Of a stretch of 64,000 nt of DNA, positions 31,671 to 57,600 are shown in pieces (the first letter of the stretch is position 1; each line of letters opens with the position of its first letter). The DNA comes from Oscillospiraceae bacterium (GTDB lineage: Bacteria; Bacillota; Clostridia; Oscillospirales; Oscillospiraceae), in contig WQWL01000001.1 in NCBI GenBank assembly GCA_009785345.1, forward strand, positions 62,001 to 126,000, read 5' to 3'. The notes beneath the pieces are model-generated. The model did no database searches. It had not been told where the DNA came from and saw only the letters and a program-made list of their open reading frames with translations. The position numbers were made by a program, and so were the translations under genes.

Positions 31671-31726
31671 AAAAAACAAGACATCGTCCAATATTATTAA
31701 GACGTTTACAGGAGAGGAATCATAAT

Positions 31727-34700
31727 ATGTTTAAGTTGTATTGTAGAATTTATCAATTCATTTTTAAGTGTGCTGCATATTGTTTGCCTTGGCGTAAGCC
31801 TGAATTACTTGAGGGCGCAGGTAGTATAGATAAGCTCCCTGCCTTGATTAAGCAACGTGGAATAAATACAGTACTGCTCGTCACAGACAGCACTATAATG
31901 TCTCTCGGTCTTACAGATGAATTGCAAGCTGCACTTCGTGATGCAGACATACAAACAGCTATATATGATAAGACCGTACCAAATCCAACATTAGAAAACA
32001 TTGAAGACGCGTATAAAATCTATAAGGAAAATAATTGTAAAGGCATAATTGCATTCGGTGGCGGTTCTCCCATGGATTGTGCAAAAGGTGTCGGTGTGCG
32101 AGTAGCCAGACCACGTACCGACATAAGACGAATGAAAGGCTTGTTGAAAGTTATAGTACCTCTTCCACAAATATTTGCAATCCCAACAACTGCCGGAACA
32201 GGCAGCGAAACAACTGTCGCCGCCGTTGTCGTAGATAGTAAAACTAAAGACAAGTATGCACTAATGGATCCAACATTAATACCACGTGTTGCAGTTCTTG
32301 ATCCAACACTTACTCTGAAGTTGCCTCCATTTGTAACTGCGACAACAGGTATGGATACTCTTTGCCATGCCATAGAAGCTTATATCGGCAGAAGTAATAC
32401 AAAGACAACAAGAGAAATGGCAAAATTAGCCACTAAACTTGTCTTTGAAAATTTGTATACAGCATACTCAGATGGAATGAATGTTCAAGCTCGCACTAAT
32501 ATGCTAAAAGCTGCATACTGTGGCGGTGTTGCGTTTACGCGTGCATATGTAGGAAATGTGCATGCTGTTGCCCATGCTTTAGGTGGCACATATGGTGTTG
32601 CCCATGGACTAGCCAATGCAGTCGTTCTCCCCTATGTCTTGGACGATTATGGTACAAAAATATACAAGTCACTCGCTGAACTTGCAGATGTGGTCGGCAT
32701 AAAAGGCAATACTAACGAGCAAAGAGCAAAAGGTTTTATAACAGCAATTAGAGAACTAAATTTAAAGATGAACATTCCAACGACAATTGATGAAATCGAA
32801 GAGGAAGATATTCCTGCACTTGCAAAACATTCACATAAAGAAGCAAACCCAACATATCCTGTTCCGCGCATTTTCTCCCAAGCTGATTTCACAAGTATTT
32901 ACGAACGTCTTATGGGAAAATCCGGAATAAATGGTTATGCAGGTAAAATGGCTCGCATAGATTTAACAAGTGGCGATATTTCGAACTTTATGCTTCCAAA
33001 AGATGATTTGAAAAAATATATTGGCGGAAAAGGATTGGCAGCAAAGATTATATATGACTCTCTTGACAGAAAAATAGAAGCATTTTCCGATGAAAACCTC
33101 ATCGTTATCACTACCTCCCCCCTTAATAGATCCAGCTTCCCAAGTTCATCAAGATATAATATTTCCACAATATCTCCACTTACAGGTCTACTTGTCTCTT
33201 CAAACTGTGGTGGTGATTTTGGCTTGAAACTTAAAGCTGCCGGATATGACGCCATCGTAATCTCCGGAAAAGCATCGAGTAAAACCTATATCGATATCAA
33301 TGAAAATGGAATCGAACTAAAAGACGCAACTGCTATGTGGGGCAAAACCACAACCGAAACAAAAGAAATGCTCGGCGATGGCGGTAAATTAGTAATAGGA
33401 GCTGCCGGTGAAAATCTCGTTCGATATGCATGTGTCGTAAATCAAGAACGTGTTGCAGGACGAGGCGGTGTTGGCGCTATTTTTGGGTACAAACAAATAA
33501 AAGCTATCGTTGTAAACGGCAATGCAGCTGCTATTAAAATTGCTAATAGCGCACGTTTAAAGAAACTCAATGCTAAGTGGATTTCGACACTAAAGAACCA
33601 TCCTCTAACGGGTAAGCAATTACCGGAAATGGGTACTGCTGCTCTTGTCAGGCAAATGCAAGAACGTGGTTTGTTAGCAACAAAGAACTTCCAATATGGC
33701 ACATTTGATAATTATGATAAAGTAAGTGGAGAAACTCTTCGTGATAATTATCTGATCAAGACTAAAGGCTGTTTGAGTTGTCCGGTAAAATGCGGACGTA
33801 TTGTTGAACATGAGGGTATTGAAATAAAAGGACCTGAGTTGGAAACAATCGGTCTTCTAGGTCCTAATCTTATGCATGATGATTTAGAACGAATAATTAG
33901 AGTAAACTATTTATGTGATGAATACGGAATGGACACAATGTCTTTTGGGGGCTCGGTTGGTTTTGCAATGGAGCTCAGTGAAAAAGAACTTTGGAATAAT
34001 GGTTTAAAATTCGGTGAGTGTGAGAATCTTGAAGAGCTTGTGTCAAAAGTAGCAACACGAGATGGAATCGGTGATGACATTGCCGATGGTGTCAGGCTCA
34101 TGTCTGTGAAGTACGGTGGCAAGGAATTCGCAGTTCACAGTAAAGGGATGGAGCTTGCAGCATATGACCCTCGCGCTGCACAAGGCATGGGACTCGGATA
34201 CGCAACCGCAAACCGTGGTGGATGTCACTTGAATGGCGGCTATCTGGTTGTAATGGAAGGTTTGGGGCTAGGTGTGAGTGGCAATACTACAAGAGGCAAA
34301 TCGGCATTCGCTGTGTTTTTCCAAGACTTGATGGAATCAGCGTCTGCTTTGGGCGCATGTCTATTCACAACATACGCAGTATTCCCTCCTGTTTCTATAC
34401 ATAATCAAAAAAATATCATCGTAAAAATGGTATATTCTATGATGCCAAATTTTGGTGGAGCAGTCGCATTTATTCATAGGCATCCATGGATAATGGACTT
34501 TAATATTTCAGCTATGATTCCTTTCCCCTTTGCATATCAACAAGTTACGGGGAATAAAATGGACATTGGCAAATTTGTTCAAACAGGTGAACGAATTTTC
34601 AATCTCGAAAGAATGATAAACATCCGTCAAGGTTTAACCGATGGTGATACTTTACCTGCAAGACTTGTAGATCAGCCACAAAAAGACGGAAATGAGAAAA

Positions 34701-34804
34701 GCATTGTGCACTTGGCTCCAATGCTGAAAAAGTATTATAAAATACGCCGTTGGGATGCTAATGGTGTGCCAACAGCGAAGTTATTAAGGAAGCTCGGGAT
34801 ATGA
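31727..34804 (+). CDS. Iron alcohol dehydrogenase fused to aldehyde:ferredoxin oxidoreductase
   Basis: 1025 residues with no internal stop. Residues 1-396 are an iron-dependent alcohol dehydrogenase: FGGGSPMDCAKG, TTAGTGSE and metal ligands D210, H214, H279 and H293. After a short linker, residues 402-1025 are a tungsten/molybdenum bis-pterin oxidoreductase: YIGGKGLAAK, cluster cysteines C682, C685, C689 and C878, and GLGYATANRGGCH. Separately these convert aldehyde to alcohol with NAD(P)H and carboxylic acid to aldehyde with ferredoxin. Inference: one chain could channel acid to alcohol. GGAGAGGAA precedes the ATG. Two moeA genes lie 4-7 kb away. Confidence 0.9.
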   Translation: MFKLYCRIYQFIFKCAAYCLPWRKPELLEGAGSIDKLPALIKQRGINTVLLVTDSTIMSLGLTDELQAALRDADIQTAIYDKTVPNPTLENIEDAYKIYKENNCKGIIAFGGGSPMDCAKGVGVRVARPRTDIRRMKGLLKVIVPLPQIFAIPTTAGTGSETTVAAVVVDSKTKDKYALMDPTLIPRVAVLDPTLTLKLPPFVTATTGMDTLCHAIEAYIGRSNTKTTREMAKLATKLVFENLYTAYSDGMNVQARTNMLKAAYCGGVAFTRAYVGNVHAVAHALGGTYGVAHGLANAVVLPYVLDDYGTKIYKSLAELADVVGIKGNTNEQRAKGFITAIRELNLKMNIPTTIDEIEEEDIPALAKHSHKEANPTYPVPRIFSQADFTSIYERLMGKSGINGYAGKMARIDLTSGDISNFMLPKDDLKKYIGGKGLAAKIIYDSLDRKIEAFSDENLIVITTSPLNRSSFPSSSRYNISTISPLTGLLVSSNCGGDFGLKLKAAGYDAIVISGKASSKTYIDINENGIELKDATAMWGKTTTETKEMLGDGGKLVIGAAGENLVRYACVVNQERVAGRGGVGAIFGYKQIKAIVVNGNAAAIKIANSARLKKLNAKWISTLKNHPLTGKQLPEMGTAALVRQMQERGLLATKNFQYGTFDNYDKVSGETLRDNYLIKTKGCLSCPVKCGRIVEHEGIEIKGPELETIGLLGPNLMHDDLERIIRVNYLCDEYGMDTMSFGGSVGFAMELSEKELWNNGLKFGECENLEELVSKVATRDGIGDDIADGVRLMSVKYGGKEFAVHSKGMELAAYDPRAAQGMGLGYATANRGGCHLNGGYLVVMEGLGLGVSGNTTRGKSAFAVFFQDLMESASALGACLFTTYAVFPPVSIHNQKNIIVKMVYSMMPNFGGAVAFIHRHPWIMDFNISAMIPFPFAYQQVTGNKMDIGKFVQTGERIFNLERMINIRQGLTDGDTLPARLVDQPQKDGNEKSIVHLAPMLKKYYKIRRWDANGVPTAKLLRKLGI

Positions 34805-38586: not shown

Positions 38587-40500
38587 CTAGCACTCTACTA
38601 TTTCCCCCGGATTTTCAAGCATGTACCCACCTAGTGTGTCCAGTCGCTCACGTAATTCATCAGATTTCAACACTTTGAGCAAATGCTGAACTTCCGGAAG
38701 TTCCCATGCGTGATCCGGTATTAGAAAATCATATTGTTCATCGCAAATATGTAAAAAGTCCAAATCATACATTTTTGCTGCCGAGTAAACCCCTAACCCA
38801 ACATCTGCTGAATCTGCAGCAATTAATGATGCAACGGAAGTATGTGTGAACTCTTCCCTATCATAACCATGTATTTTTGTCGTATCTATATTATTCTGCT
38901 TACACAAATAGTCCATTAGAATTCGCGTACCCGAACCCTTTTGTCTATTTACAAATCTTATGTTATCTTGACTAATATCGTCAACATTACTGATTCCCTT
39001 TGGATTTCCCTTTTGCAAAATCAGCCCTTGCATTCTTTTAACACAGTGCACTAACTTAACTTTTCTATCAGGAATTAATTTTTGTACAAATGACTTATTA
39101 TACTCGCCTGTTTTTTCATCAAGCAGGTGAGTTCCTGCAATATGAGCTTCGCCTTTTCTAATAGCCAAAAGCCCACTCATACTTCCCACATGTGAAGACG
39201 TAATAGATATATTTCCGTACTCACGTTTGAGAATGTCGTTAAGCTCATCAATTAATGGATCATGACTTCCAATAATTACAATGCTTTTACGCAACTCTTC
39301 TTCACTACGTAGCAATCTGACATTGACACATGCTCCACCTTCATAACCCTCGACACCTTGAGGAACTTCCAAAATCCCATCTGCTCTCATAAACGACGTT
39401 ACAATTCCACTTCCACGACTTAGTGGCGAAGCTATTAACTTATCATGAACATATCCCATACGAACACGTACAAATTCACAATATTTCAAAGTAGAAACAA
39501 CTGATCTTGATAACGTCGCATCTAAGTACTTCGCACTCTCGCTTGAAGTTTTGCAAAGAAAATCAACTATAGGACGCACCAATTGCTCTAGCACAATAAT
39601 CCCTGACACGGGATAACCGGGTATTCCAACAACAGCTTTTTCTCCGCAGTAACCAAGAATTGCGGGTTTTCCCGGCTTGATAGCAATACCATGATACAGT
39701 ACTGTACCAACTTGATCGATTACTTTTGCAGAATAATCCTCCCTCCCTGCTGACGAACCTGCTCCAAGCAAAACAATATCACACTCCAAAAGTGCAGTAT
39801 CAAGTGTCTCGCGTATAAGTAATGCGTCATCTTTTACAATTGGATATATTACGGTTTCTGCTCCCCATTCATGAAGCATTGCGGAAAATATCGCCGAATT
39901 AAACTCAGGAATATCCCCACTCTTCAATTCTGCACTTGGTAAAACAATCTCATCGCCTGTTGGTATAAAACCAACAACGGGCTTTTTTATTATGTGCACA
40001 TCTGTAACACCACTTGCAATCATAGCACCAAGTGCAGAAGGTGTTATCTTTGAAAAAGATGGTAAAATCATCTCTCCGGCACAAATATCTTCACCGATTT
40101 GCCTGATATGTTGCCAAGGAGCTGCAGCCTCAAAAAGACGAATAACTCCATCCTCGTTGTCAGAAAAAATAACATCCTCAATCATAATGACAGCATCACA
40201 ATCATCAGGCAAAGCATCACCTGTATCAATGAACTTATACTGCTCACGAGATAAAGTTACAGGAGTCGTCTCACTAGCACCAAAAGTTAATCTGGCATCA
40301 AGTGCAATACCATCCATTGCAGCAGCATTATAATGAGGCACACAAATATCAGCATAAACAGCCCCACTAGTCACCCTACCAGAAGCCTCTGTAACATGGA
40401 CAACCTCTTCTCGCCAACTCATGCCGTTGGAGAGAAGAGCATTAAGATAATCCTCCCGTGCTTTCCCAAGTTCGATATTGGTTAAATATTTAAAGTTCAT
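38587..40500 (-). CDS. moeA: MoeA with C-terminal periplasmic-binding-protein-like domain
   Basis: 637 residues. Residues 1 to about 400 are MoeA, the enzyme that inserts molybdate or tungstate into adenylylated molybdopterin: DTGDALPDDCDAV, the GAGSSAGREDYSA loop and KPGKPAILG. Residues about 405-637 form a PBP-like/LysR substrate-binding type domain (IVIIGSHDPLIDEL, NRQKGSGTRILMDYL), seen fused to MoeA in some anaerobes and likely to bind oxyanion or a regulator ligand. It follows a second moeA by 37 bases. Both may serve the AOR enzyme encoded 4 kb away. Confidence 0.9.
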   Translation of the reverse strand: MNFKYLTNIELGKAREDYLNALLSNGMSWREEVVHVTEASGRVTSGAVYADICVPHYNAAAMDGIALDARLTFGASETTPVTLSREQYKFIDTGDALPDDCDAVIMIEDVIFSDNEDGVIRLFEAAAPWQHIRQIGEDICAGEMILPSFSKITPSALGAMIASGVTDVHIIKKPVVGFIPTGDEIVLPSAELKSGDIPEFNSAIFSAMLHEWGAETVIYPIVKDDALLIRETLDTALLECDIVLLGAGSSAGREDYSAKVIDQVGTVLYHGIAIKPGKPAILGYCGEKAVVGIPGYPVSGIIVLEQLVRPIVDFLCKTSSESAKYLDATLSRSVVSTLKYCEFVRVRMGYVHDKLIASPLSRGSGIVTSFMRADGILEVPQGVEGYEGGACVNVRLLRSEEELRKSIVIIGSHDPLIDELNDILKREYGNISITSSHVGSMSGLLAIRKGEAHIAGTHLLDEKTGEYNKSFVQKLIPDRKVKLVHCVKRMQGLILQKGNPKGISNVDDISQDNIRFVNRQKGSGTRILMDYLCKQNNIDTTKIHGYDREEFTHTSVASLIAADSADVGLGVYSAAKMYDLDFLHICDEQYDFLIPDHAWELPEVQHLLKVLKSDELRERLDTLGGYMLENPGEIVEC

Positions 40501-40537
40501 AAATATTCCCTTTCACCTTCGTTACCTTTTTGCAAAA

Positions 40538-41752
40538 TCAAAAATAAACCACTTTAACAGCTTCACCCTTAGCAAGCCCTTCACAATCTCTGGGCACGCA
40601 TATATAACCATCTACACCCGATAAGCTGGAAATCAAACCTGACTTTCCCCTAATCGGACGAGCAACATATACACCATCAACCTCAATAAGCGACACACCA
40701 ATATACTCTGCCCTGCCATGATTTGAAGAAATCGCTTCAGCGAGTCGGGCATCGACGCTATAACGCTTCACATTTGATCCTAAAAGTCTATTTATCAACG
40801 GACGAACAAATAGCTCAGTCACCATGTATGCAGCCACCGGATGACCAGGCAAACCAAAAACAAGCTTGCCACGAACTATGCCTAATATCGTTGGCTTTCC
40901 CGGTTTCATTGCAATCCCGTGTAATAGTAACTCACCCTCGGACTCAATTACCCGTGCAGTCATATCTCTAGCACCAGCAGAAGAACCGCCGGAAATAAGA
41001 CATATATCACAAGTCTCAACTGCTGACAAAACAGCATTACGAATTGCTTGCTCATCATCCTTGACTATACCGAAATCCATAGCCTTTGCGCCAAGCTGTG
41101 TCACAGTAGCAAGCAGCATCGGTGTGTTTATGTCACGTACTTGACCACCAACTGGAACACGTGAAGTCGGGACAAGTTCATCACCTGTCGAAATGACACC
41201 AACAACAGGCTCAACGCGCACCTCCACCCTATCATGTCCAAGAGCAGCTAATATACCTATATCATGTGGAGTCAATACTGTGCCGTCTTTCAAAACTTCT
41301 TGTCCAATGCGTACATCGTCACCATTGAAAATAACATTATTTCCTGGAGCTACGGGCTTTTGAATGCCCACAATATTCTCACCATAATTTTCGCTGTGTT
41401 CAACCATTACCACAGCATCAGCACTTTCTGGCAATTCTCCACCAGTTGAAACAATCGCACAATCACCTGTAGCAAGCGCCACATCGGCAGACTCTCCCAT
41501 CAGAACTTCTGAAACAATATTAAGAATAGCCGGAATACTCTCGTTACAACCAAATGTATCCGAAGCACGTACAGCATACCCATCAACTGTAGAACGATTA
41601 AAGTTCGGTACATTTTCATCCGATGATATATTAAAGTGCAAAACTCGTCCACATGCATTCAACAAGTCAACGAGTTCTGATTTGGAATCAAAACTCAAAT
41701 ACAACGAATCTATTATTTTTATAACTTCATCGGGCGTTTTTACATTTAACAA
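40538..41752 (-). CDS. moeA: Molybdopterin molybdenumtransferase MoeA
   Basis: 404 residues from a TTG start; the only nearby ATG is out of frame. It has the standard MoeA layout: VDGYAVRASD near residue 60, STGGELPESADAVVMVEH, SGGSSAGARDM and KPGKPTILG, and domain IV at the end. It is the first gene of a tandem moeA pair. Paralogue pairs can separate molybdenum from tungsten loading in other organisms; which does which here cannot be told. Confidence 0.92.
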   Translation of the reverse strand: MLNVKTPDEVIKIIDSLYLSFDSKSELVDLLNACGRVLHFNISSDENVPNFNRSTVDGYAVRASDTFGCNESIPAILNIVSEVLMGESADVALATGDCAIVSTGGELPESADAVVMVEHSENYGENIVGIQKPVAPGNNVIFNGDDVRIGQEVLKDGTVLTPHDIGILAALGHDRVEVRVEPVVGVISTGDELVPTSRVPVGGQVRDINTPMLLATVTQLGAKAMDFGIVKDDEQAIRNAVLSAVETCDICLISGGSSAGARDMTARVIESEGELLLHGIAMKPGKPTILGIVRGKLVFGLPGHPVAAYMVTELFVRPLINRLLGSNVKRYSVDARLAEAISSNHGRAEYIGVSLIEVDGVYVARPIRGKSGLISSLSGVDGYICVPRDCEGLAKGEAVKVVYF

Positions 41753-41824: not shown

Positions 41825-43522
41825 ATGTCACTTCCGAAAACACACCAACTCAGACTTGGTGAAGTACTACTTGAATCAGGATATTTAACTGAGGAAGAGC
41901 TTAACAAGGCTCTCAGCATACAACAGTCATCACCAACGAGAAAGCGACTAGGTGAGGTTTTGATCGAAACCGGTATTATAACAGAGGATCGATTAAATAC
42001 TGCACTTTCGACACGCCTTGGGATAAAGTATGTTCCAATCAGTGAATGTCCTATAGAACTTAGCGCAGTTGCATTAATTCCAAAATCAGTTGCATTGAAG
42101 CATTGCCTGATAGCGATAAAAGTTGATCGAAACATATTACACATATTAATCAATGACCCACTTAACTATTATGCAATTGAAGATGTAAAGTTAATATCTC
42201 GTGCTCAACATGTCGAAAGCATGGTCTGCAAACGTGATGAAATTCTGCATGCCATAAACGAAAGCTATTCAGAAATCGAAACACAAAATGCAACTCGTAG
42301 TGCTAACGAAGCTGCAGGTGAAACCAGTGCGCTTACATATGTCGATATTTCTGAAACAGCTGACGATACACCGGTTGTAACATTGATAAATTCAATGCTA
42401 AACAAAGCACATAGTGCTGGTGCTAGTGATATTCATATTGAACCATTTGAAAACCAAACACAGATAAGAATTCGTGTTGATGGTCAAATCGTTGATTATA
42501 CGACATTATCACAATCACTACACAGCTCAATGACTGCTCGAATAAAGATACTTAGCGGAATGGACATTGCTGAAAAACGTGCTCCGCAAGATGGTCACTT
42601 CCGTGCAATGCTTGAAGATGCAGAGCTCAATGTACGTGTATCATCAATTCCAACTCTATATGGAGAGAAAATTGTTCTGCGATTTCTTAGTCAAACAGCC
42701 GTGCTTGATAACGCCACAACCTTTGGAATGCAACAAGATGATTATGACAAAATGTTGTCATTATTGCAATCCCCCCATGGTTTGATTTATATCACCGGAC
42801 CTACAGGTAGTGGAAAAACAACAACATTATATATGCTGGTTGAACTATTATCAAAACGAAATGTAAATATTGCTACTGTCGAAGACCCTGTAGAGAAGGC
42901 AATACATAAAGTCAATCAAACGCAAATCAATCCACTAGCCGGATTGACTTTTGAAACCGGATTACGCTCTATACTACGTCAAGATCCGGATATAATAATG
43001 ATTGGTGAAACACGTGACACAGAAACAGCAAGTATATCTGTTCGCTCGGCTCTTACAGGGCATCTGGTGCTATCCTCATTACACACCAATGACTCAGTCT
43101 CTGCAATAGTGCGACTCATTGATATGGGTGTCGAAGACTATTTAGTATCCAATTCACTCGTCGGCGTTGTCGCGCAACGATTAGTCAAGAAAATCTGTCC
43201 ATTTTGTCGTGAAGAATATGAGGCAACTGAATCAGATATGCGCTCTATGAACACAACAGATATAAAAGTACTTGCAAGAGGACGTGGATGTCATAACTGC
43301 AATAATACAGGATATAAAGGAAGAGTTGCAATACATGAAATACTAACAATTGATGCAAAAATCAGAAACCTCATAACACACAGCTCCGGGATTGATGAAG
43401 TATATGCCTATGTAAGAGAAAATAATATGATAAAAAGTCTACAGACAAGCCTTATTAGTCTTGTTAAGGAAAGAAAAACAACATTAGAAGAACTACTTAA
43501 GCTTACATATTTCGTACAGTAA
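41825..43522 (+). CDS. pilB: Type IV pilus assembly ATPase PilB
   Basis: 565 residues. An N-terminal MshEN-like domain (RLGEVLLESGYLTEEEL, repeated in RLGEVLIETGIITEDRL) precedes the GspE/PilB ATPase. Walker [11 protein letters not shown] is near residue 324, the Asp box and Walker B read QDPDIIMIGETRD, and the zinc site has CPFC and CHNC. It powers pilus extension at the inner face of the membrane. AAGGAGGAA precedes the ATG. It is the first gene of the plus-strand pilus operon. MshEN repeats in other bacteria bind c-di-GMP, which may apply here. Confidence 0.95.
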   Translation: MSLPKTHQLRLGEVLLESGYLTEEELNKALSIQQSSPTRKRLGEVLIETGIITEDRLNTALSTRLGIKYVPISECPIELSAVALIPKSVALKHCLIAIKVDRNILHILINDPLNYYAIEDVKLISRAQHVESMVCKRDEILHAINESYSEIETQNATRSANEAAGETSALTYVDISETADDTPVVTLINSMLNKAHSAGASDIHIEPFENQTQIRIRVDGQIVDYTTLSQSLHSSMTARIKILSGMDIAEKRAPQDGHFRAMLEDAELNVRVSSIPTLYGEKIVLRFLSQTAVLDNATTFGMQQDDYDKMLSLLQSPHGLIYITGPTGSGKTTTLYMLVELLSKRNVNIATVEDPVEKAIHKVNQTQINPLAGLTFETGLRSILRQDPDIIMIGETRDTETASISVRSALTGHLVLSSLHTNDSVSAIVRLIDMGVEDYLVSNSLVGVVAQRLVKKICPFCREEYEATESDMRSMNTTDIKVLARGRGCHNCNNTGYKGRVAIHEILTIDAKIRNLITHSSGIDEVYAYVRENNMIKSLQTSLISLVKERKTTLEELLKLTYFVQ

Positions 43523-43676
43523 TATTGTGAGGTGACATTAGTTTGAATGAATTCAAACTAACGAAAGAATATGCCACTTGCTCTCCCTATGGGAAACCGC
43601 AAGTGAAGCATGAAATGACCGTCCCTTCTCATGGTCATTTTGTGTCTAGAGATTTTCGAAAGGAATGGTCATTATA
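43523..43676 (+). ncRNA. Structured leader element, copy 1 (before pilT)
   Basis: Between pilB and pilT. Helix 1 is TTAGTTTGAA/TTCAAACTAA (43538-43561) with a TGAA loop. Helix 2 is ATGC+CACTTGC paired with GCAAGTG+AA+GCAT (43571-43611), capped by TCCC-TAT-GGGA and AAACC. Helix 3 is AAATGACC/GGTCATTT (43613-43640) followed by TTTTGTG. Segment 43615-43625 can also pair with the ribosome site GGAATGGTCAT (43662-43672). Copies occur before pilM and scpB. Confidence 0.7.
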
Positions 43677-44732
43677 ATGCATATCAATGAACTGCTTGCA
43701 AAAGCAAGAGCTGAACGAGCAAGTGATGTCCACATTACAGTTCAACGTAATCCCCTATTTCGCATAGATGGGGTGCTGCACGAGACAGCATATTTGCTTA
43801 ACATACCTGAAAAGCGCGAAATGGTGCTTTCTCTTCTTACTGAAAAGCAACGTAAGAAAGTCGAAAACACCATTGATGTTGACACGAGCTATGAAACTGA
43901 TGATGGCTTGCGCTATCGTGTTAATGTGTTCTATCAACAGCAGCAAATCGCCGCTGCCATAAGACTTCTCAATGAACAGATACCCACATTTGACGAGTTG
44001 GGACTCCCAGACTCACTTCGATCACTTGCTGATGAGCCTCGTGGACTTATTCTAGTAACTGGACCAACCGGAAGCGGTAAATCTACCACTCTTGCAGCAA
44101 TGGTTGACTACATCAACACGAAAAAAGCATGCCATATTTTAACTATTGAAGACCCCGTTGAATATGTATACAAGCAAAAAATGGCAATGATACATCAACG
44201 CAATGTTGGTGAAGATGTGGAAAGTTTTTCTGGTGCGTTAAAGAGTGCAATGCGCGAAGACCCTGATGTTATACTTGTTGGAGAAATGCGAGATTTTGAG
44301 ACAATATCTGCAGCAATAACTGCCGCTGAGACAGGGCATCTGGTTCTCTCCACACTACACACCACCGGTGCAGCAATGACAATTGATCGAATCATTGATG
44401 TATTCCCACCCCATAGTCAACAACAAATTCGCACACAACTCTCAGCTGTACTTAGAGGCGTCATTACACAAACTCTATTACCGAAAGCGAGTGGTATTGG
44501 TCGTGTTGCGGCATTTGAAATTATGATAGGAACAGACGCTGTTTCTACTTTAGTACGAGAAAGCAAAGGACATCAACTCAACTCAATCATACAAACAAGC
44601 TCACGTCAAGGTATGGTCTTACTTGATGACTATCTTGCCAATTTGGTAAGAAGCGGCGTAATAAAAAAAGAAGCAGCTCTTGAAAAAGCTACAAATAAGA
44701 CAGAATTTCTTTCAGCTATCGAGCGCATCTAA
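43677..44732 (+). CDS. pilT: Type IV pilus retraction ATPase PilT
   Basis: 351 residues from the ATG at 43677; an ATG four codons earlier lies inside the ribosome site AAGGAATGGTCAT. The N-terminal PAS-like domain begins MHINELLAKARAERASDVH. The ATPase has Walker A GPTGSGKST near 128, Walker B DPDVILVGEMRD, and the HLVLSTLHTT histidine box. It pulls pilin back into the membrane, so the pilus is probably retractile. The leader before it is structured. Confidence 0.95.
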   Translation: MHINELLAKARAERASDVHITVQRNPLFRIDGVLHETAYLLNIPEKREMVLSLLTEKQRKKVENTIDVDTSYETDDGLRYRVNVFYQQQQIAAAIRLLNEQIPTFDELGLPDSLRSLADEPRGLILVTGPTGSGKSTTLAAMVDYINTKKACHILTIEDPVEYVYKQKMAMIHQRNVGEDVESFSGALKSAMREDPDVILVGEMRDFETISAAITAAETGHLVLSTLHTTGAAMTIDRIIDVFPPHSQQQIRTQLSAVLRGVITQTLLPKASGIGRVAAFEIMIGTDAVSTLVRESKGHQLNSIIQTSSRQGMVLLDDYLANLVRSGVIKKEAALEKATNKTEFLSAIERI

Positions 44733-44868
44733 TATTATTATTTGAAATGGCTAATTTTTATCAATAATTACACGAAGATATAGTATAAGAGCTACTCGTT
44801 ATATATTAATATTACGAGCAAAATATTAAACAACAACAAATTATATGGTAATGGAAAGGAATAAGGAA

Positions 44869-45300
44869 ATGAAACTTCAAAAAATTCTCAAGAATAGAAA
44901 AGGCTTCACATTAATGGAGCTAATCATCGTCCTTGTCATTGTCGCTATATTAGCAGCCGCGCTTATCCCGTCGTTTCTAAACTTTGCAACCCGAGCACGC
45001 GAGGAATCACTGTATGCTCAAGCCAGAGTAGGTATGGTCGCCGCGCAGGTACTGATAACAGAAAGTGGTAAGCCGATAGCCGATGCAAAAGATGACAGAG
45101 TTACGCTTACATATGACCAATTTATTAGTAGAGTAAGAACCTCAACAGAAGGTGTAGATTTTTATAATTTAGTAGTGGATGACGTAGATAATCCAGACGG
45201 ATTTTCTGACTTCGTTATTGCTAAAGGTGGTCTTCGTATTGTAGGAATAACATATGAAAAAAATACTGATGAAAAAGTAATTATCACACCTCCCGCATAG
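44869..45300 (+). CDS. pilA: Major type IV prepilin-like protein
   Basis: 143 residues from the ATG at 44869, which has AAGGAA upstream; an ATG 24 bases earlier lacks one. A 12-residue basic leader ends in glycine, cleaved before FTLMEL, so the mature protein has F1 and E5. A 20-residue hydrophobic helix follows, then a small globular domain of about 100 residues without the disulfide loop of Gram-negative pilins. Its place after pilT and before the peptidase suggests the main subunit. Confidence 0.88.
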   Translation: MKLQKILKNRKGFTLMELIIVLVIVAILAAALIPSFLNFATRAREESLYAQARVGMVAAQVLITESGKPIADAKDDRVTLTYDQFISRVRTSTEGVDFYNLVVDDVDNPDGFSDFVIAKGGLRIVGITYEKNTDEKVIITPPA

Positions 45301-45385
45301 TCAATAATTTTTGATAATATCAAGTAATGCAAAATATTAATTACTTTATTTTCAGCTGAACCTCGCTGTAATTAACATATTCCCA

Positions 45386-45416
45386 GCGCCCGCTTCATAA
45401 AAATGCAAGCGGGCGC
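45386..45416 (+). other. Strong GC-rich hairpin between pilA and pilD
   Basis: GCGCCCGCTT (45386-45395) pairs perfectly with AAGCGGGCGC (45407-45416) around an 11-base loop. No T-run follows on either strand. It may protect the pilA mRNA 3' end or attenuate read-through into pilD, giving more pilin than peptidase. Confidence 0.65.
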
Positions 45417-45441
45417 ACAAATAGTAAGGAAGCATAGAATA

Positions 45442-46212
45442 ATGATGTATGACTTAATCACAATCTACACATTTCTTGTAATCGTTGGAGCTTGCATTGG
45501 TAGCTTCATCAATGTTGTTATATCGCGCTTGCCGATTAAAGGCGCGTTTTTAGCAAGTAAACGCTCGCGTTGTCTGAAATGTGATAAAGAACTAAAACCA
45601 TATGATATGATTCCAATTCTTTCCTGGCTAATTCTAAAAGGGCATTGCAGAAATTGTAAAATGAAAATCCCAATTCAATATCCTCTGGTTGAACTATCTT
45701 GCGCACTCCTTGCAGTTGTGACCTTTATGCGATTTGGTTTAAGTCTTGAAACAATTCTCGCATTTGGTGTGACAGTTACCCTACTTGCAATCTCAGTGAT
45801 TGATTTGCAGACATCAAAAATACCAAACTCACTAGTAATTGCAATTGCCGTTTTCGCTGTTGCCGCAATTTGGTTTTTTCCGCATGCCACACTGCTTGAA
45901 CGAGTTATCGGCTTTTTCATAATAAGCATACCATTGCTCATTATCACTCTAGTAGTAAATGGAGCATTCGGCGGCGGTGACATTAAACTAATGGCAGCAT
46001 GCGGTTTTTTACTCGGCTGGCAAGACACATTACTAGCGTTCTTCATAGCACTACTACTAGGCGGAGTCTGCGCAATATTTCTCATATCTACCGGCAAACG
46101 AGCTCGTGGCGAACATATGGTCTTTGGACCTGCAATTAGTCTTGGTGTGGCAATCTCACTCTTTTTTGGATATGACATCATTTCTTGGTATCTCACACTA
46201 ATTACCTTTTAG
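45442..46212 (+). CDS. pilD: Prepilin peptidase
   Basis: 256 residues from ATG at 45442, preceded by AAGGAAG; the frame extends further upstream through the pilA-pilD hairpin but lacks a ribosome site. A24-family aspartic protease and N-methylase: about seven membrane helices, zinc-binding CLKC and CRNC in the first loop, catalytic aspartates in VIDLQTSKIPN and FGGGDIKLMAA. It cuts the leader from all four prepilins of this locus and methylates the new N-terminus. Confidence 0.94.
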   Translation: MMYDLITIYTFLVIVGACIGSFINVVISRLPIKGAFLASKRSRCLKCDKELKPYDMIPILSWLILKGHCRNCKMKIPIQYPLVELSCALLAVVTFMRFGLSLETILAFGVTVTLLAISVIDLQTSKIPNSLVIAIAVFAVAAIWFFPHATLLERVIGFFIISIPLLIITLVVNGAFGGGDIKLMAACGFLLGWQDTLLAFFIALLLGGVCAIFLISTGKRARGEHMVFGPAISLGVAISLFFGYDIISWYLTLITF

Positions 46213-46278
46213 CCTAAACTATATTGAACATATTTTTATTTTGAGTAACAATTATTATAAATATGGAGAATTGTGATC

Positions 46279-47466
46279 ATGCCTAGATATACATATTTAG
46301 CAATTAACCTAACAAATAATAAAGTACACGGAGAGCTAGACGCGCGTGATGATGAAGATTTACGGCGTTTACTTCGAGCTCAAAACCTTGTGCCAACTAA
46401 ATACAAGGAAATTGAAGACAAGAGCACTGTCTATCATATGAAAGCAAATGACGTTGGCGAGTTTTCTAGACAGCTTGCCGGTATGCTCGCAAGTGGTATA
46501 ACCATTTTGCGTGCAATGGAAATTTTAAAGAACCGTGATTTTTCGCCTAAAATAGTTGCAATCTATTCGAAACTACATAGAGATGTTCAAATGGGACATA
46601 CTCTTTCTGAGGCTATGCGATTACAAGGAAAGGCATTTCCTGATTTATTAGTAAATATGTATGCATCAGGTGAAGCTAGCGGTCAATTAGAGAAAGTTGC
46701 CGAGAAGATGGCGGTGCACTATGAAAAGGAACATCGGTTAAATTCAAAAGCAAAAGCTGCTATGACCTATCCTATGATACTTCTTGTAACTACCATTGTC
46801 GTTGTGTTACTTTTATTCACCCTCATTCTTCCCAACCTGCTCAGTGCATTTGAAGGATTCGATTTGCCTGCGATCACTCGGGCAATGCTATCAATCAGCA
46901 CATTCATGGTCAGCTATTGGTATATCGTAATTATCGGTATTCTCATAATCGTTCTCGCAATTCAAATGCTTATGACAATAGAGACGGTTAGATATCAGTT
47001 CGATAAATTAAAACTGAAAATTGTGAAAGTCGGCAAACTGCTCAAAATTATCTATACAGCGAGATTTGCCAGAACACTTTCTTCATTATATTCAAGTGGG
47101 ATACCAATGATTCGTGCTCTTGAAATTACATCTACCATCATTAACAACAAGTATATTGCTGAACAATTTACAGATGTGATAACTAATGTTCGAAATGGTG
47201 ATTCCCTCTCATCCTCAATTGGGAAAGTTGAAGGGTTCGACAAGAAACTTTCGACAACCATCATGATTGGCGAGGAATCCGGAAGACTTGATTCCATGCT
47301 TGAATCAACTGCTGAAAGTTTTGACTATGAATCCGAGATCGCCCTGGACAAACTTGTACAACTTATTCAGCCCATCATGATTATTATAATGGCTGCGATA
47401 ATAGGTACAATCATGTTAGCAGTAATGTTGGCAGTAATGTCAATTTATCAAGGCGTAGGCGCATAA
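46279..47466 (+). CDS. pilC: Type IV pilus inner-membrane platform protein PilC
   Basis: 395 residues from the ATG at 46279, with GGAGA upstream; a GTG six bases earlier is weaker. Two GspF domains are seen (EFSRQLAGMLASGITILRAME and FARTLSSLYSSGIPMIRALE) with three membrane helices. It links the ATPases to pilin assembly in the membrane. Confidence 0.94.
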   Translation: MPRYTYLAINLTNNKVHGELDARDDEDLRRLLRAQNLVPTKYKEIEDKSTVYHMKANDVGEFSRQLAGMLASGITILRAMEILKNRDFSPKIVAIYSKLHRDVQMGHTLSEAMRLQGKAFPDLLVNMYASGEASGQLEKVAEKMAVHYEKEHRLNSKAKAAMTYPMILLVTTIVVVLLLFTLILPNLLSAFEGFDLPAITRAMLSISTFMVSYWYIVIIGILIIVLAIQMLMTIETVRYQFDKLKLKIVKVGKLLKIIYTARFARTLSSLYSSGIPMIRALEITSTIINNKYIAEQFTDVITNVRNGDSLSSSIGKVEGFDKKLSTTIMIGEESGRLDSMLESTAESFDYESEIALDKLVQLIQPIMIIIMAAIIGTIMLAVMLAVMSIYQGVGA

Positions 47467-50945: not shown

Positions 50946-51650
50946 CTACTTTTCAACTGATTCAGATTCAATAATTTCATAGCTCACTAACACCCACTTA
51001 CCAAAATCACTAAAATTCATCTCTCTTATTTCGCCATCGGCATTTTCGTCCGACAATATACCATCTCTATACTCGTAGGTTGCTACCGTTGTGATAAATC
51101 TAGGTGTTTCTCTCAAACTTGCAGATTCAATCTCTACGATTGTACAAACAGTCATTTGCGCATTTACTGTAGCCGTTTTTGGGATACGAGGGGTTGGTGG
51201 TATCGTTTCAGGCACTGCATCGACGGGTCCTGCAAACCTAACATCCTGGAATAGTATTTCTAACGCTATGCTTTCAACAGCACTCATATCGACTCCCGGT
51301 ATATCAATATCAAGCTCAACCGTCTCAATTGGTACTTCTGAATTCGTGTTATTGTAGATTAGTTGTGCAATTTGGTATGCTAACGAATTTTCAAAATCCT
51401 CATCGAGATAATCTGTTGATGAAGGCGTCATTTCCAGACTGTGTTTAATACTTCCATGTATTGAGTCTGTCATAACTATTGCTGTATTGTACTTACTTTG
51501 TCTAACATTTGAACCAATGTTTGCACTTGCAGCAGTTAGAACGGAAGCGCCGACAGCCAAAAGCAAGAACATGATTCCAAGCACAAACATTAATGACATG
51601 CCTGATTTATCTTTCAATATTCTAGAAGCTTTGTTTATAAGTCGCATCAT
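50946..51650 (-). CDS. PilX-like pilus assembly protein
   Basis: 234 residues from ATG at 51650, which overlaps the preceding stop by one base (TGATG) and has GGAGG five bases upstream. A short basic N-terminus ends KSG before MSLMFVLGIMFLLL, then a hydrophobic helix without the glutamate at position 5 of ordinary pilins, as in PilX/GspK proteins. A long soluble domain with acidic stretches follows. GspK-like subunits cap pilus tips. Confidence 0.68.
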   Translation of the reverse strand: MMRLINKASRILKDKSGMSLMFVLGIMFLLLAVGASVLTAASANIGSNVRQSKYNTAIVMTDSIHGSIKHSLEMTPSSTDYLDEDFENSLAYQIAQLIYNNTNSEVPIETVELDIDIPGVDMSAVESIALEILFQDVRFAGPVDAVPETIPPTPRIPKTATVNAQMTVCTIVEIESASLRETPRFITTVATYEYRDGILSDENADGEIREMNFSDFGKWVLVSYEIIESESVEK

Positions 51651-54600
51651 CAACGCCTCCATTCTCTATTTCTTTGCTCGTGATATCGCAAAATATATCG
51701 ATTAACTCTGCGTCCATTACGTTTACATCTATTGTACTCATTGATTCTTCGAACAGCTCTTGCATTGCGCTTTCGCATGTATCTTTTAAAAATTCTTGTT
51801 TGAGTAAATCCAGCTCCACCAAATAGTGTAATTACGCCGGTTGCAATTGCAAAACCATCTCTACTTGTTGTGTCTTCATCACTATCAGCTATGCCATCTT
51901 CTTCGGAATTTCTAACATTGTCTGTGTAGGATTCATTTGGGCTTCCCTTTCCATTATCATCACCGGTTAATTCATCTGGTACATCTCCATATTCGCCTCC
52001 ATCATCTGAGGTGTTAGATTCATTATCATTGTCACCCAAGTCATCCATACAGCTTTCATCTACTGCTATTTCATCCATTTCGCTCTCATGCATCTCGCTA
52101 AGTTCTATATTCCATTCTGATGCAGTCGTTGCTATCAACTCAGGCTCACCTTCAATAACGATAGGCCACGCGGTTGGAACACTTTGTGTTGATGATATTA
52201 TGCGATTAACATATGGATAGGTGTTTTCGTAAACAAAATCGTACATAGGTGTTGATGATGGCAGCGTCCAGATCGACGGTATTTGATTTGTCCAATAAGG
52301 TAAAGCTTCAATCGTTATATATAGCTCTTCAGTATCGACCATTGTGAAATCGATTACCGGCTGTGTGAATACTATATAATCAAAGCCATTAACAGAGCTT
52401 ATAGTGTTATTTTCGCTATCTATAATCATGACTTCAGATGTGGATATTCCACCGAGATAATATACTTCCATGTATTTTGCCGACGTTCCGGCTTCAGAGT
52501 TTATGATTGGATATATTTCTGTACCATTATTTGGTGCAGGTGCCAGGTAAATAACGCTTGTTATTTTTCCGGTATTTTCCCCAACCACACCGCCAGCTTT
52601 TGCTCCTGAGCCTCCTGTTGGTACAATAACATTTTCACTATTTATATCCAGAATTGAACTTACAATAGAAATATCTGTTATCATCCCTGTATTCTGCCCT
52701 GCTATTGAGCCTACATACACAGCTGAGCCTACTTGTGCATTAACATTCCCTCGTATTGGTGATGTTGATCGCGATGTACCATCAAACACTAATGTAACCC
52801 TGCTAATTGTGCCATTATTCCGGCTAAATAGGCCAACATAACTCGTTTGGACTGAAGTTCCAGACTGTGTATAGTTAATCGTTAACCCTTTTATAATATT
52901 GCCACTACCATCAAATATTCCGTCGAATATCCCCATTACAACAGCCGCCGAGTTGCCTAATGATATATTTGTAAAATCAAGGTCGCGTTCCTGTATAAAG
53001 TTAACACCTGATGTTACTGTAGGAGCACTCATTTGAATCATTTGTTGCGGAGTGCGTATATAAATTTGTGACGGATTCGTTGCAGCTGCAAAATTAGTAT
53101 AAATAGACTTTGCAAAACGTGTATCTATCCAATAACCGGTTGCTTGGTCGTTTACATAAATCTCACCTGATACACCTGATGCAACCGTTGTCGGAATTAC
53201 AGCATAGTAATAGCTAGTCTCAACACCAACTCCGGGTCGTGCTGTATCTATAGAATTTATATAGGTATTATTACCATTACTTGCATTTATGCTTATACCA
53301 AATGTTCCCGGTCTATCAATCATAACAGCATATCCATACCGTGTTACCTGAACATCATTATTATTGCTGAGCTCTGGTAACCCAGAACTACTCTGTGTTG
53401 AATAAAAACCAACAGTTCCATCAGAATATTCTTCAAAGTAGACAATATCCTTAGCTGTAACAGTTGCTACAGGCCATGTCATGGTTGGCGATGTGCCGAG
53501 ATATGGATATGGGTTATATTCACTGAGTATTGTGTTGTTCAGTGTTAGCACAGATGACTGTCTCCAAAATTCACCAAGCTCACTACTTGCATTCAGTTCT
53601 TGTGTTGTACGAGGCTCACCGCGAACTACTGCTGATGTTGGGAAAATGTTGAAGTTTGCTGTTTGTGGTGCTTGTGTAGGGCGCAGTACTGATGAATACG
53701 TACCGGAGAGATAGTATGCATTTATTTCTGTTCCTTCTCCTGCTGCTGTGATAGGGGCAATAGCAGTAGTTGAACTTCCTGATGCTTGTGCAAGGAATAA
53801 GGCATTCTCTATTGTGCCGTCGTTTGTTCCAACAATTCCTCCTGTTTTATCTGATCCGGTAATCGGTTGTTGTGATATAGAAGTCGTTGAGTTTCCTGAA
53901 ACAAAGGCAACATTTCTAACAACTCCATTGTTTATAGATGCAAAACTGCCATTATTGCTTCCATTTTGAATATATGAGTTGTAAAGTGTCAGATTTTCAA
54001 TAGTTCCGTTTACTCCAATTGTATTAAATAGCCCTTTGTTATCTCTTGTAATATTTGTGCCTGTAGTTGAATTTACTAATGACAAGTTACTAATATTATT
54101 CCCTTGCCCGTTATATACACCTGTGAACTCACCACGAACTATGTTAGCAAGCTGAGCCACAGTAGGTTGATTATTGCCCGGAGGTGATACAAGACTTACT
54201 CCAAGTCCTGTTTTTGTCATATCGATATCTATCTCTTGAATAAACGTATGTTCATGATCATTGCTGCAAAGTGCAACACTCTTTTCAATGTATAGCGATA
54301 TGTTTTGTAACTGCCACGGTGTGCGTATTGCATGCTCTGTTGGATGCCGATTTTTTACATTACTCAATACAGGAGGAGTGCCTGAGCCTGAACCCAGATC
54401 CACAGGATAAACTTCTTTGGCAAAGAATGGGTTAACAAATGCTTTAATTCCTGGAAGCTCAACTTTACCAGATGAGCTGGAAATGAACAGTATAATTGGC
54501 TCAATCGGATTTTGTGCACTTTCTGCTGCACTTAAAAGCAATCTTGCAGGAAAATAAACAAACTTACGTGGTTGCAATTGCGGAACTGGTAAATCCAAAC

Positions 54601-57600
54601 CGGATAGTTGCATTTGCCCCCCCGGTCCACCAGCATTCAGTTCTGCCCACGGACTCCAGGAATTATTTATATATTGCGAGAATACCACCGGACGATTTGC
54701 GTTTGTGTTAAAGCCGGTCGGTATTTCAGCACCGTATCCTGCTTCAGTTATAATTGGATTATCATATCTTAAATAATCCATAATTCTCAAGTTGCCAGCT
54801 GCATCATAATATCGTGCAAATATTCCTATTCCACCTCCGGTATATTTTTCGTAGTAAATCAAACCCAACTCATCAGGGAGATCATTTGGTATAAAGGCGA
54901 CAACTGGCCATTCTTCTCTTTCTATAGATGGAACTGTTCCTATGGGAAAAGGATATAGAAATTGTGTATGGTTTTGCATTGCATCAAAGTTTATGTTATT
55001 TGTATTATTTATAGTCCAATTATTGTTAAATTGCACTGTACTATAACTTTCTACAATGCTTTTTGTATCCATAGCAGGATAATCCAACTTTTGTCCTGTT
55101 GCCCTGAGATTATAGTCAGTATAAGATGCAGTACCACCATCTAAAACTGTTTGGAATGGTCTAAGTGCCGGTTCACCGGAAAGGTACACAGCGTTGTTGC
55201 CATATGAAGTATTAGATCCTGTAAATGGACGCATTTCTGCTCTTCCGCTTCCTATTCTAGGAGCGACTGCAAGATACATGATGTTATCAATTTCGCTTGC
55301 TGTCACACCCGCAATGCCTCCAACTGAAGCAGTGTTTGTTCCTCTGATTGCAGGGCGTGCAGATGTAGACGTAAATATTACATCGTTCAAAGCACCTAAG
55401 TTATTTCCAACAATCCCGCCAACATTTGACGTTCCTCGTACAGCAGCAGGATGGTCGCTCCAATCAGGTAATTGTCCCTGTGCATTTCGAGTGACAACTT
55501 GTTGTACAAAGCAACTTTTAACAATCCCAGAACTCAAGTTTGTTCCAACAATTCCTCCGACATTTGAGCGGCCTACTATGGTGTCTGTTGTGTATGAATA
55601 TAATCTAAGTGTTACTTGTTCAATAATTCCTGCATTTTCTGCAAATAATCCAACATTGTCAGAGCTCGGAGTATTAATCATCAGGTTTGATATCCACATA
55701 TTCGTACCGACAAATCTTCCGGCAAATTGTTCTGTGATAATTGCATTTTTTGCAAACAATCTGCGTGTAGTCGTATTTGTGTTAAATGTATTGCCGCTTG
55801 ATTTCACTACTTCACCGTAGTAGTTTATGGCATAATCTATGTTTAAATGTTGTGTGAAAACGCCACTTGTGTCCCCTGCAACAAAGTTTATATTATCCAT
55901 CTGCCTTGCTGAACGTATGCTTGCATTTGTTGTATTAGTAAAATTAGCAAATAATGGATTATAGCTTTCAACGACTCCCGAACCAGGAGCATTTACTCTG
56001 CTTAAAATGTTCTCTACAGAAGTAATTTCATCAATTGAAGTCTCTGCATTTGGGAACAGTCTAATATCTATCTGCTTATTTGTTGGCGAACTTGCATATT
56101 CAAGAGCAAGATAATTCGGTATATAAATGCGGTACATAACTGGATTATCAATACCATCCTCTGGAATATTAATCGTAGGAACAAACTGCTCAGCAGCCTG
56201 CCAGTCCTCGTCAAGTACTGCTTCCTCTATGCCATCAACAATCACTAATACTCTCCATTCATTATCAATTTGAATAATTTTATAGAAGTGTCCTTCTCCG
56301 TACTCAAACAAATATCCCTGCGTATTCGGATAAAACTCAATGGCATAACCATCGTGTGTTACAAGTGCGGACGAACCTGCAGATACAATAGTAGTGCTTA
56401 AATATGGACTTACATATCTCCGTGAATAATCTGAGTAAAATTCATAATAAACCAACGCACCTGCATGGATTATTGTTTCACCATAAATATCTTCCCATCC
56501 CATTTCATGGCTCTCTTGTAGAGGATCAAGTATGGACTCTTCTATGTATGCAAACGGGTTGTTATTCGCCAGTATTGGATATGGATATTGAGTATATTTG
56601 TTCTTCTGAACACCGTCACCATATGCAGCAAGATAATCGATGTTAACATCAAAGCCCGAAGGTAAGCGAACGTTGGCAATATCGCTTAGTTCTTCTCTCG
56701 TTAGTGATCCCCAATCAGCACCAGAGTCTGTCGCACCATTTGCAATATAGTGGGAATTTCTGATCGTACCGGTATTCGTTCCGGCAATTCCGCCTGTATT
56801 GATGTTTGCATCATTATAAATTGCCACAAAGTTAGTAGCATAGCTGTTTTCTATAGTTTCTGTACTTTCGTTCAGTCCGGCAATTCCTCCCAGATTAGTA
56901 CCACTTGAAACGGTCGCTGTTGATGTATAGCTAATAGACTGATATGTATCCGGATCAATCTCAACATCTTCTATGTTTACTCTGGCATTATTATGGCAAT
57001 ATGTGATTTTCCCATCATTACTACCAACTAATCCACCTATATTCCCACCATTTGCAATAACAGAACCTGTGCCGATGAAAACTAATTCATTTTCACCATT
57101 TTCAGCTTTCATATATTGGAATGTGCGTGTATCACTATGTGTATTGAAATATCCGGCATTAAATGAATACGACAATACTCCCTTATTTTCTATGCGCCCG
57201 ATAAGACCACCGATATTACCGCTATCACCCAAAACATTCGCAAAGCTATTGCTACGGATTACCTGTCCCCCATCTAAAATTCCTGCAATAGAACCAACAT
57301 TCGTGGCATTTGGTGCGATAATTTCTGCATCAAACAATGAAACGCCGACAATATTCCCTTGAACATTTGAAAATAATCCAACATTTTGATTATTATATGC
57401 TGACTTATCAGAAGTATTTATTCTTAAATACTCGATTCTCCATTGTAAATTTGTTCCATTTACAGCGTTGTATGAGCCTGTCAAATTTGTAATCGGTCTG
57501 AAGTTGTATGGTGTTCTATTTATTTCTGCGGCCATCTCATTTATCAAGGTCCTCATGTCAATATCAGCTGTTTGCGCATAATTGCCATCAGGAACATAGA

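Follow-up and report, generated by a model that had tools for sequence, protein, structure and literature searches.

Does a single open reading frame that joins an iron-type alcohol dehydrogenase (ADH) to an aldehyde:ferredoxin oxidoreductase (AOR) represent a genuine two-enzyme protein, and what would such a protein do? The question is raised by a gene in the 64,000-nucleotide stretch of Oscillospiraceae DNA analyzed here (the window), which opens with ATG and has 1025 codons without an internal stop (Table 1). Four Pfam matches, all far exceeding the curated cut-offs, assign residues 27–193 to Fe-ADH (E = 1e-46), 204–395 to ADH_Fe_C (2e-46), 406–598 to AFOR_N (2e-65) and 614–1025 to AFOR_C (1e-115). 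The protein thus comprises a complete ADH (residues 1–395), a short linker and a complete AOR (residues 401–1025), and both the reading of the frame and the Pfam matches agree with the original prediction that the two enzymes share one open frame. The fusion gene stands alone, outside any fermentation operon. Elsewhere in the window are two adjoining MoeA genes, 4–7 kb from the fusion, one of which ends in a PBP-like domain (PRK14498 type), the type IV pilus genes pilB, pilT, pilC and a prepilin peptidase gene, and a long ORF that combines GLUG motifs with a pilin-type methylation motif at its N-terminus.

Table 1. Coordinates of the fusion gene, its parts and related loci (window positions, or positions within the locus named).
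Feature	Locus	Coordinates	Strand	Remarks
ADH-AOR fusion gene, 1025 aa + stop	Window	31727..34804	+	Single open frame; same fusion in four congeners
Ribosome-binding site AGGAGAGGAA	Window	31710..31719	+	Read directly from the sequence
N-terminal helix	Window	31727..31801	+	Motif YCRxxQxxxxxAxYxLPWRxP (alignment); helix 2–17 in models
Iron-type ADH domain	Window	31805..32911	+	PF00465/PF25137; GGGS, TTAGTGSE, four metal ligands; Z 56 to 3owo
Linker, residues 396–406	Window	32912..32944	+	ADH tail running into AOR N-terminus; no Shine-Dalgarno sequence before Met396
AFOR_N domain	Window	32942..33520	+	Pfam PF02730
AFOR_C domain	Window	33566..34801	+	Pfam PF01314; residues mapped to 1aor
Helical insertion, residues ~884–944	Window	34376..34558	+	Unaligned versus 1aor
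Two MoeA genes	Window	38587..41752	-	
Type IV pilus genes	Window	41825..47466		
2425-aa ORF	Window	51650..58927	-	
AOR paralog, 903 aa	L084	1824..4532	-	Same genome as the window
ADH-AOR fusion of G004	L080	5368..8367	+	
ADH beside AOR, genus g45	L072	838..2082	+	
AOR-ADH fusion, genus g102	L160	3380..6547	+	
AOR-ADH fusion, genus g102	L161	3744..6917	+	
AOR-ADH fusion, genus g102	L162	2289..5450	-	
AOR-ADH fusion, genus g102	L163	3431..6598	+	
Ferredoxin-ADH fusion	L065	4016..5704	-	
Ferredoxin-ADH fusion	L066	4581..6419	-	
Ferredoxin-ADH fusion	L067	5796..7505	+	
Ferredoxin-ADH fusion	L172	2966..4633	-	
Ferredoxin-ADH fusion	L175	7258..8946	+	
Ferredoxin-ADH fusion	L177	7048..8736	+	

In the ADH half, the GGGS motif occupies residues 111–114 and TTAGTGSE residues 154–161, and D210, H214, H279 and H293 correspond to the Asp/His/His/His metal-ligand set of group III ADHs. 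Structure alignment with 3owo gave an rmsd of 1.5 over 377 residues, and the closest solved structures are methanol dehydrogenases, propanediol oxidoreductase and FucO. By Pfam, fold and motifs this half is an iron-containing (group III) ADH, with a predicted NAD(P)-dependent alcohol/aldehyde activity. Its N-terminal motif is typical of the ADH subfamily and is found in fused and unfused members alike.

The AOR half aligns with 1aor, 9g7j and 9mqx at Z 52, the closest solved AORs being those of Clostridium autoethanogenum (9g7j) and Pyrococcus furiosus (PfAOR, 1aor). We checked the four cluster cysteines and four active-site residues listed in PMC13328260. Cysteines 682, 685, 689 and 878 match PfAOR 288, 291, 295 and 494, and T637, E706, Y813 and H834 match Thr243, Glu313, Tyr427 and His448. 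Ser873 occupies the position of PfAOR Asp489, a second pterin contact that is absent from the conserved list of PMC13328260; the unfused relatives that were read also have Ser here. The Fe-bridging Glu332 and His383 of PfAOR are not conserved, and every member of the AOR subfamily, whether fused or unfused, has the helical insertion. By domains, fold and residues this half is a tungsten oxidoreductase large subunit (WorL), predicted to use tungsten or molybdenum and ferredoxin. Apart from the Ser at the Asp489 position, every cofactor and catalytic residue checked was found in both halves, which bears out the original claim of two complete catalytic sets. The window's own genome also encodes an AOR paralog (Table 1), whose congener counterparts are of similar length (884–900 aa). 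The AFOR_C match of this paralog extends over about 560 residues for a profile of 385 positions, which points to a large insertion.

The source genome is a draft (3.5 Mb, 237 contigs, 86% complete). The open frame is common to five species, which rules out an assembly or frameshift error: a search for the same fusion in other genomes, which had been proposed as a check, found it without a stop and at 54–76% identity in four other species of the genus (G002, G012, G016 and G004; for G004 this refers to the sequenced part). Of two more congeners, G015 shows the AOR half of the fusion where a contig begins and G006 only the ADH. The ligase/uvrC genes close to the window fusion are also found close to the fusions of G002 and G004. 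Among the window-type fusions dN was 0.16–0.28, reaching 0.40 with G004, while dS was saturated, so that no dN/dS ratio is given; the low dN combined with saturated dS indicates that both halves are under constraint.

The view that the protein is non-catalytic or decaying draws on the G004 fusion, in which GGTF replaces GGGS, Gly replaces His279 and Asn replaces His283 in the ADH half, Asn replaces Glu706 (PfAOR Glu313) in the AOR half, and the branches are the longest among the fusions in both the AOR and the ADH trees. Since key residues have been lost from both halves, catalysis is not indispensable there, and this fusion may be decaying or may have been recruited for another role. For the window protein such an explanation is highly improbable, given the strong constraint and given that it retains every catalytic residue checked, as do three more full-length fusions. 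The G004 case shows that a fused frame can outlast its chemistry, and residue checks are needed before claims are made for any one member. Replacement of AdhE by the fusion was also considered and dropped, as AdhE was found in only one of 19 congeners and offers no contrast.

The junction is short. Structure alignment places the end of the ADH at residues 396–399 and the beginning of the AOR at residue 401, residues 396–406 are predicted as coil, and the linker is about 5–11 residues long; the original estimate of about six residues holds if the linker is read at its shortest. The gene's own start follows a good ribosome-binding site (Table 1). An internal methionine at the junction might serve as a separate start of the AOR half, but this was rejected, as a Shine-Dalgarno sequence is missing upstream of it in all window-type fusions. 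AlphaFold models of the window protein (pLDDT 93.2, pTM 0.86) and of the G016 fusion (pLDDT 91.0, pTM 0.84) were built with few paired rows, and pTM is a confidence score rather than a distance. We read a pTM this high as unexpected for a chain of 400 + 625 residues if the mutual orientation of the halves were undefined; confident packing is thus predicted. This predicted packing, together with the recurrence of tethering in several architectures described below, counts against the view that the fusion does not channel aldehyde and matters chiefly for balanced expression and assembly. The same view gains from the alignment, which showed no interface loops peculiar to the fusions: unfused relatives share both the AOR insertion and the N-terminal helix. 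In AdhE and BdhE, by contrast, loops of this kind did evolve (PMC12454647). On balance we consider it doubtful.

How did the fusion arise? The window-type fusions form one clade in both trees (support 100/100 for the AOR, 99/92 and 96/91 for the ADH), and their closest AOR relative in the tree, G798, lies outside the genus and has ADH and AOR genes in tandem, with a single TAG and a few bases between the two. From the single clade and this tandem arrangement, it is most likely that separate genes are the older state and that the fusion arose via stop-codon loss in a two-gene operon. Several other candidates were rejected as fusions: the near full-length matches in G282, G798, G886 and G866 are tandem genes with one in-frame stop and an AOR start right after it, the match in G1440 consists of two separate ORFs, and the frames of 1195–1199 aa in G180 and G251 resolve into separate ORFs for ADH, ferredoxin and AOR.

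The same two enzymes are also joined in the reverse order. Four genomes of the related genus g102 encode AOR-ADH fusions of 1054–1058 aa with every motif intact (Table 1), and in the trees both of their halves are placed away from the window type, which indicates an independent origin. This second joining suggests that the family repeatedly gained from tying the two enzymes together. The g102 linker still has a ribosome-binding site (AAGGGAG or AAGGAG) ahead of the ADH methionine, and some separate ADH may be made from this fusion. Six further loci encode an ADH of the same subfamily that carries a four-cluster ferredoxin at its N-terminus, beside a separate AOR and WorX. Provided that the fused ferredoxin is the small subunit of AOR, ADH is tied to AOR in each of the three architectures. 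They could represent a repeatedly evolved class, in which two genera join AOR and iron ADH directly, in one order or the other, and others join them via ferredoxin, with the aldehyde handed between the pterin and iron sites, as a ferredoxin-driven, CoA-free counterpart of AdhE/BdhE; we regard this broader reading as evenly balanced.

To place the fusions in context, we considered 61 loci of the AOR subfamily, which were picked from top matches and hence do not give population frequencies. Five carry ADH-AOR fusions, four AOR-ADH fusions and 29 an ADH within 4 kb; the remaining 23, several of which lie at contig ends, showed no ADH in their sampled flanks and suggest that AOR can work without ADH. 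At most unfused loci a four-cluster ferredoxin and a ThiS-like WorX are encoded as well, often with ThiF. In genus g45 (L072, L087, L088, L089 and L178) the AOR neighbor is an iron-type ADH from another lineage (about 39% identity) that does not have the N-terminal motif, and therefore the pairing with AOR arose with more than one ADH. The original prediction that the halves are functionally linked is strengthened by this recurrent neighborhood with at least two ADH lineages, by the two fusions in opposite orders and by the third, ferredoxin-ADH type.

No dedicated four-cluster ferredoxin turned up in the neighborhood of the nine direct fusions, a correlation of little statistical weight because the nine represent two origins. 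Genome-wide, the fusion genomes tested, several of which are incomplete, also had no full-length relative of this ferredoxin (positive control G168, 1.8e-61). Its absence from the fusion genomes suggests that the electron route may differ from that of the unfused relatives.

What, then, would the fusion do? We propose, with a probability of about 0.72, that it is a bifunctional oxidoreductase interconverting carboxylic acid, aldehyde and alcohol, with tethered active sites, both halves presumably active and the aldehyde presumably passed between them. The C-terminal pterin/[4Fe-4S] AOR half would interconvert acid and aldehyde, exchanging electrons with ferredoxin, and the N-terminal ADH half would interconvert aldehyde and alcohol with NAD(P)(H). 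The tether would fix a 1:1 ratio and keep both active sites together, so that the reactive aldehyde could be handed over or consumed immediately. When the chain runs reductively, the unfavorable acid reduction would be pulled by the ADH; the reverse direction and a two-way disposal of aldehyde would run on the same chain. The twice-found direct fusion and the ADH neighborhood argue for halves that pass the same aldehyde.

The two reactions are established biochemistry as the AOR-ADH pathway, in which AOR uses ferredoxin at about -520 to -560 mV to reduce the acid to the aldehyde, ADH then uses NAD(P)H, and removal of the aldehyde pulls the first step (PMC10816221, PMC12727526). For the net direction, we consider acid-to-alcohol conversion the more likely course, at somewhat under even odds. 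Alcohol oxidation, in which the ADH yields aldehyde and NAD(P)H and the AOR oxidizes the aldehyde to acid and reduced ferredoxin, for example for H2 formation, would use the thermodynamically easy direction of AOR (PMC12727526, PMC10816221), but the NAD+-driven step demands strong product removal and a limited look found no genomic pointer to alcohol use; we consider it unlikely. Most characterized class I tungsten oxidoreductases have been assigned to aldehyde detoxification (PMC13328260), and the solitary position of the fusion gene would also suit a detoxifier, in effect a dismutase, removing aldehydes both ways (to acid with ferredoxin, to alcohol with NAD(P)H) rather than performing acid-to-alcohol fermentation. 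Such a role by itself leaves two fusions in opposite orders unexplained, and we hold it to be rather unlikely.

The proposed bifunctional oxidoreductase resembles several known systems. In AdhE and BdhE, fusions of an aldehyde dehydrogenase with an ADH arose twice from neighboring genes and substrate channelling has been proposed (PMC12454647); as there, an aldehyde-forming enzyme is fused to an iron-type ADH, two steps run in series, and there is more than one origin from neighbors. Unlike there, the partner is a pterin/[4Fe-4S] AOR, predicted to act with ferredoxin on the free acid, rather than an NAD/CoA aldehyde dehydrogenase; the ADH is N-terminal in the window fusion (C-terminal in g102), and fusion-specific loops were not seen. 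The domain search found no N-terminal aldehyde dehydrogenase domain in the window protein, which is therefore not an AdhE/BdhE member. With the class I enzymes 9g7j (C. autoethanogenum AFOR) and 1aor the AOR half shares about 40% identity by structure alignment and the same cluster cysteines and active-site residues; those enzymes stand alone, whereas the window AOR has an ADH attached and an additional helical segment (residues ~884–944). The unfused relatives, with AOR, four-cluster ferredoxin, ThiS-like WorX and ThiF, come close to class II tungsten oxidoreductases, composed of WorL and a ferredoxin-like WorS (PMC13328260), from which the fusion differs in that its genomes have no four-cluster ferredoxin and an ADH takes its place in the chain. 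The AOR-ADH pathway of acetogens and Thermoanaerobacter runs the same two reactions in series with separate proteins.

We found no report of an ADH-AOR fusion in the open-licence literature searched, and alcohol dehydrogenase goes unmentioned in the main text of a 2026 classification that covers 4,064 tungsten oxidoreductases. New here are also the opposite-order fusion of g102 and the ferredoxin-ADH fusions in other genera. In vivo acid reduction by AOR, against an unfavorable equilibrium, is debated, and pull by the following ADH is a proposed answer (PMC12727526); a natural single chain with both predicted activities makes this idea directly testable. If both halves act as predicted, the fusion would be a compact catalyst for the conversion of acids to alcohols. 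Beside AdhE and BdhE, it adds a further, unrelated aldehyde-forming partner of iron ADH for the study of convergent fusion.
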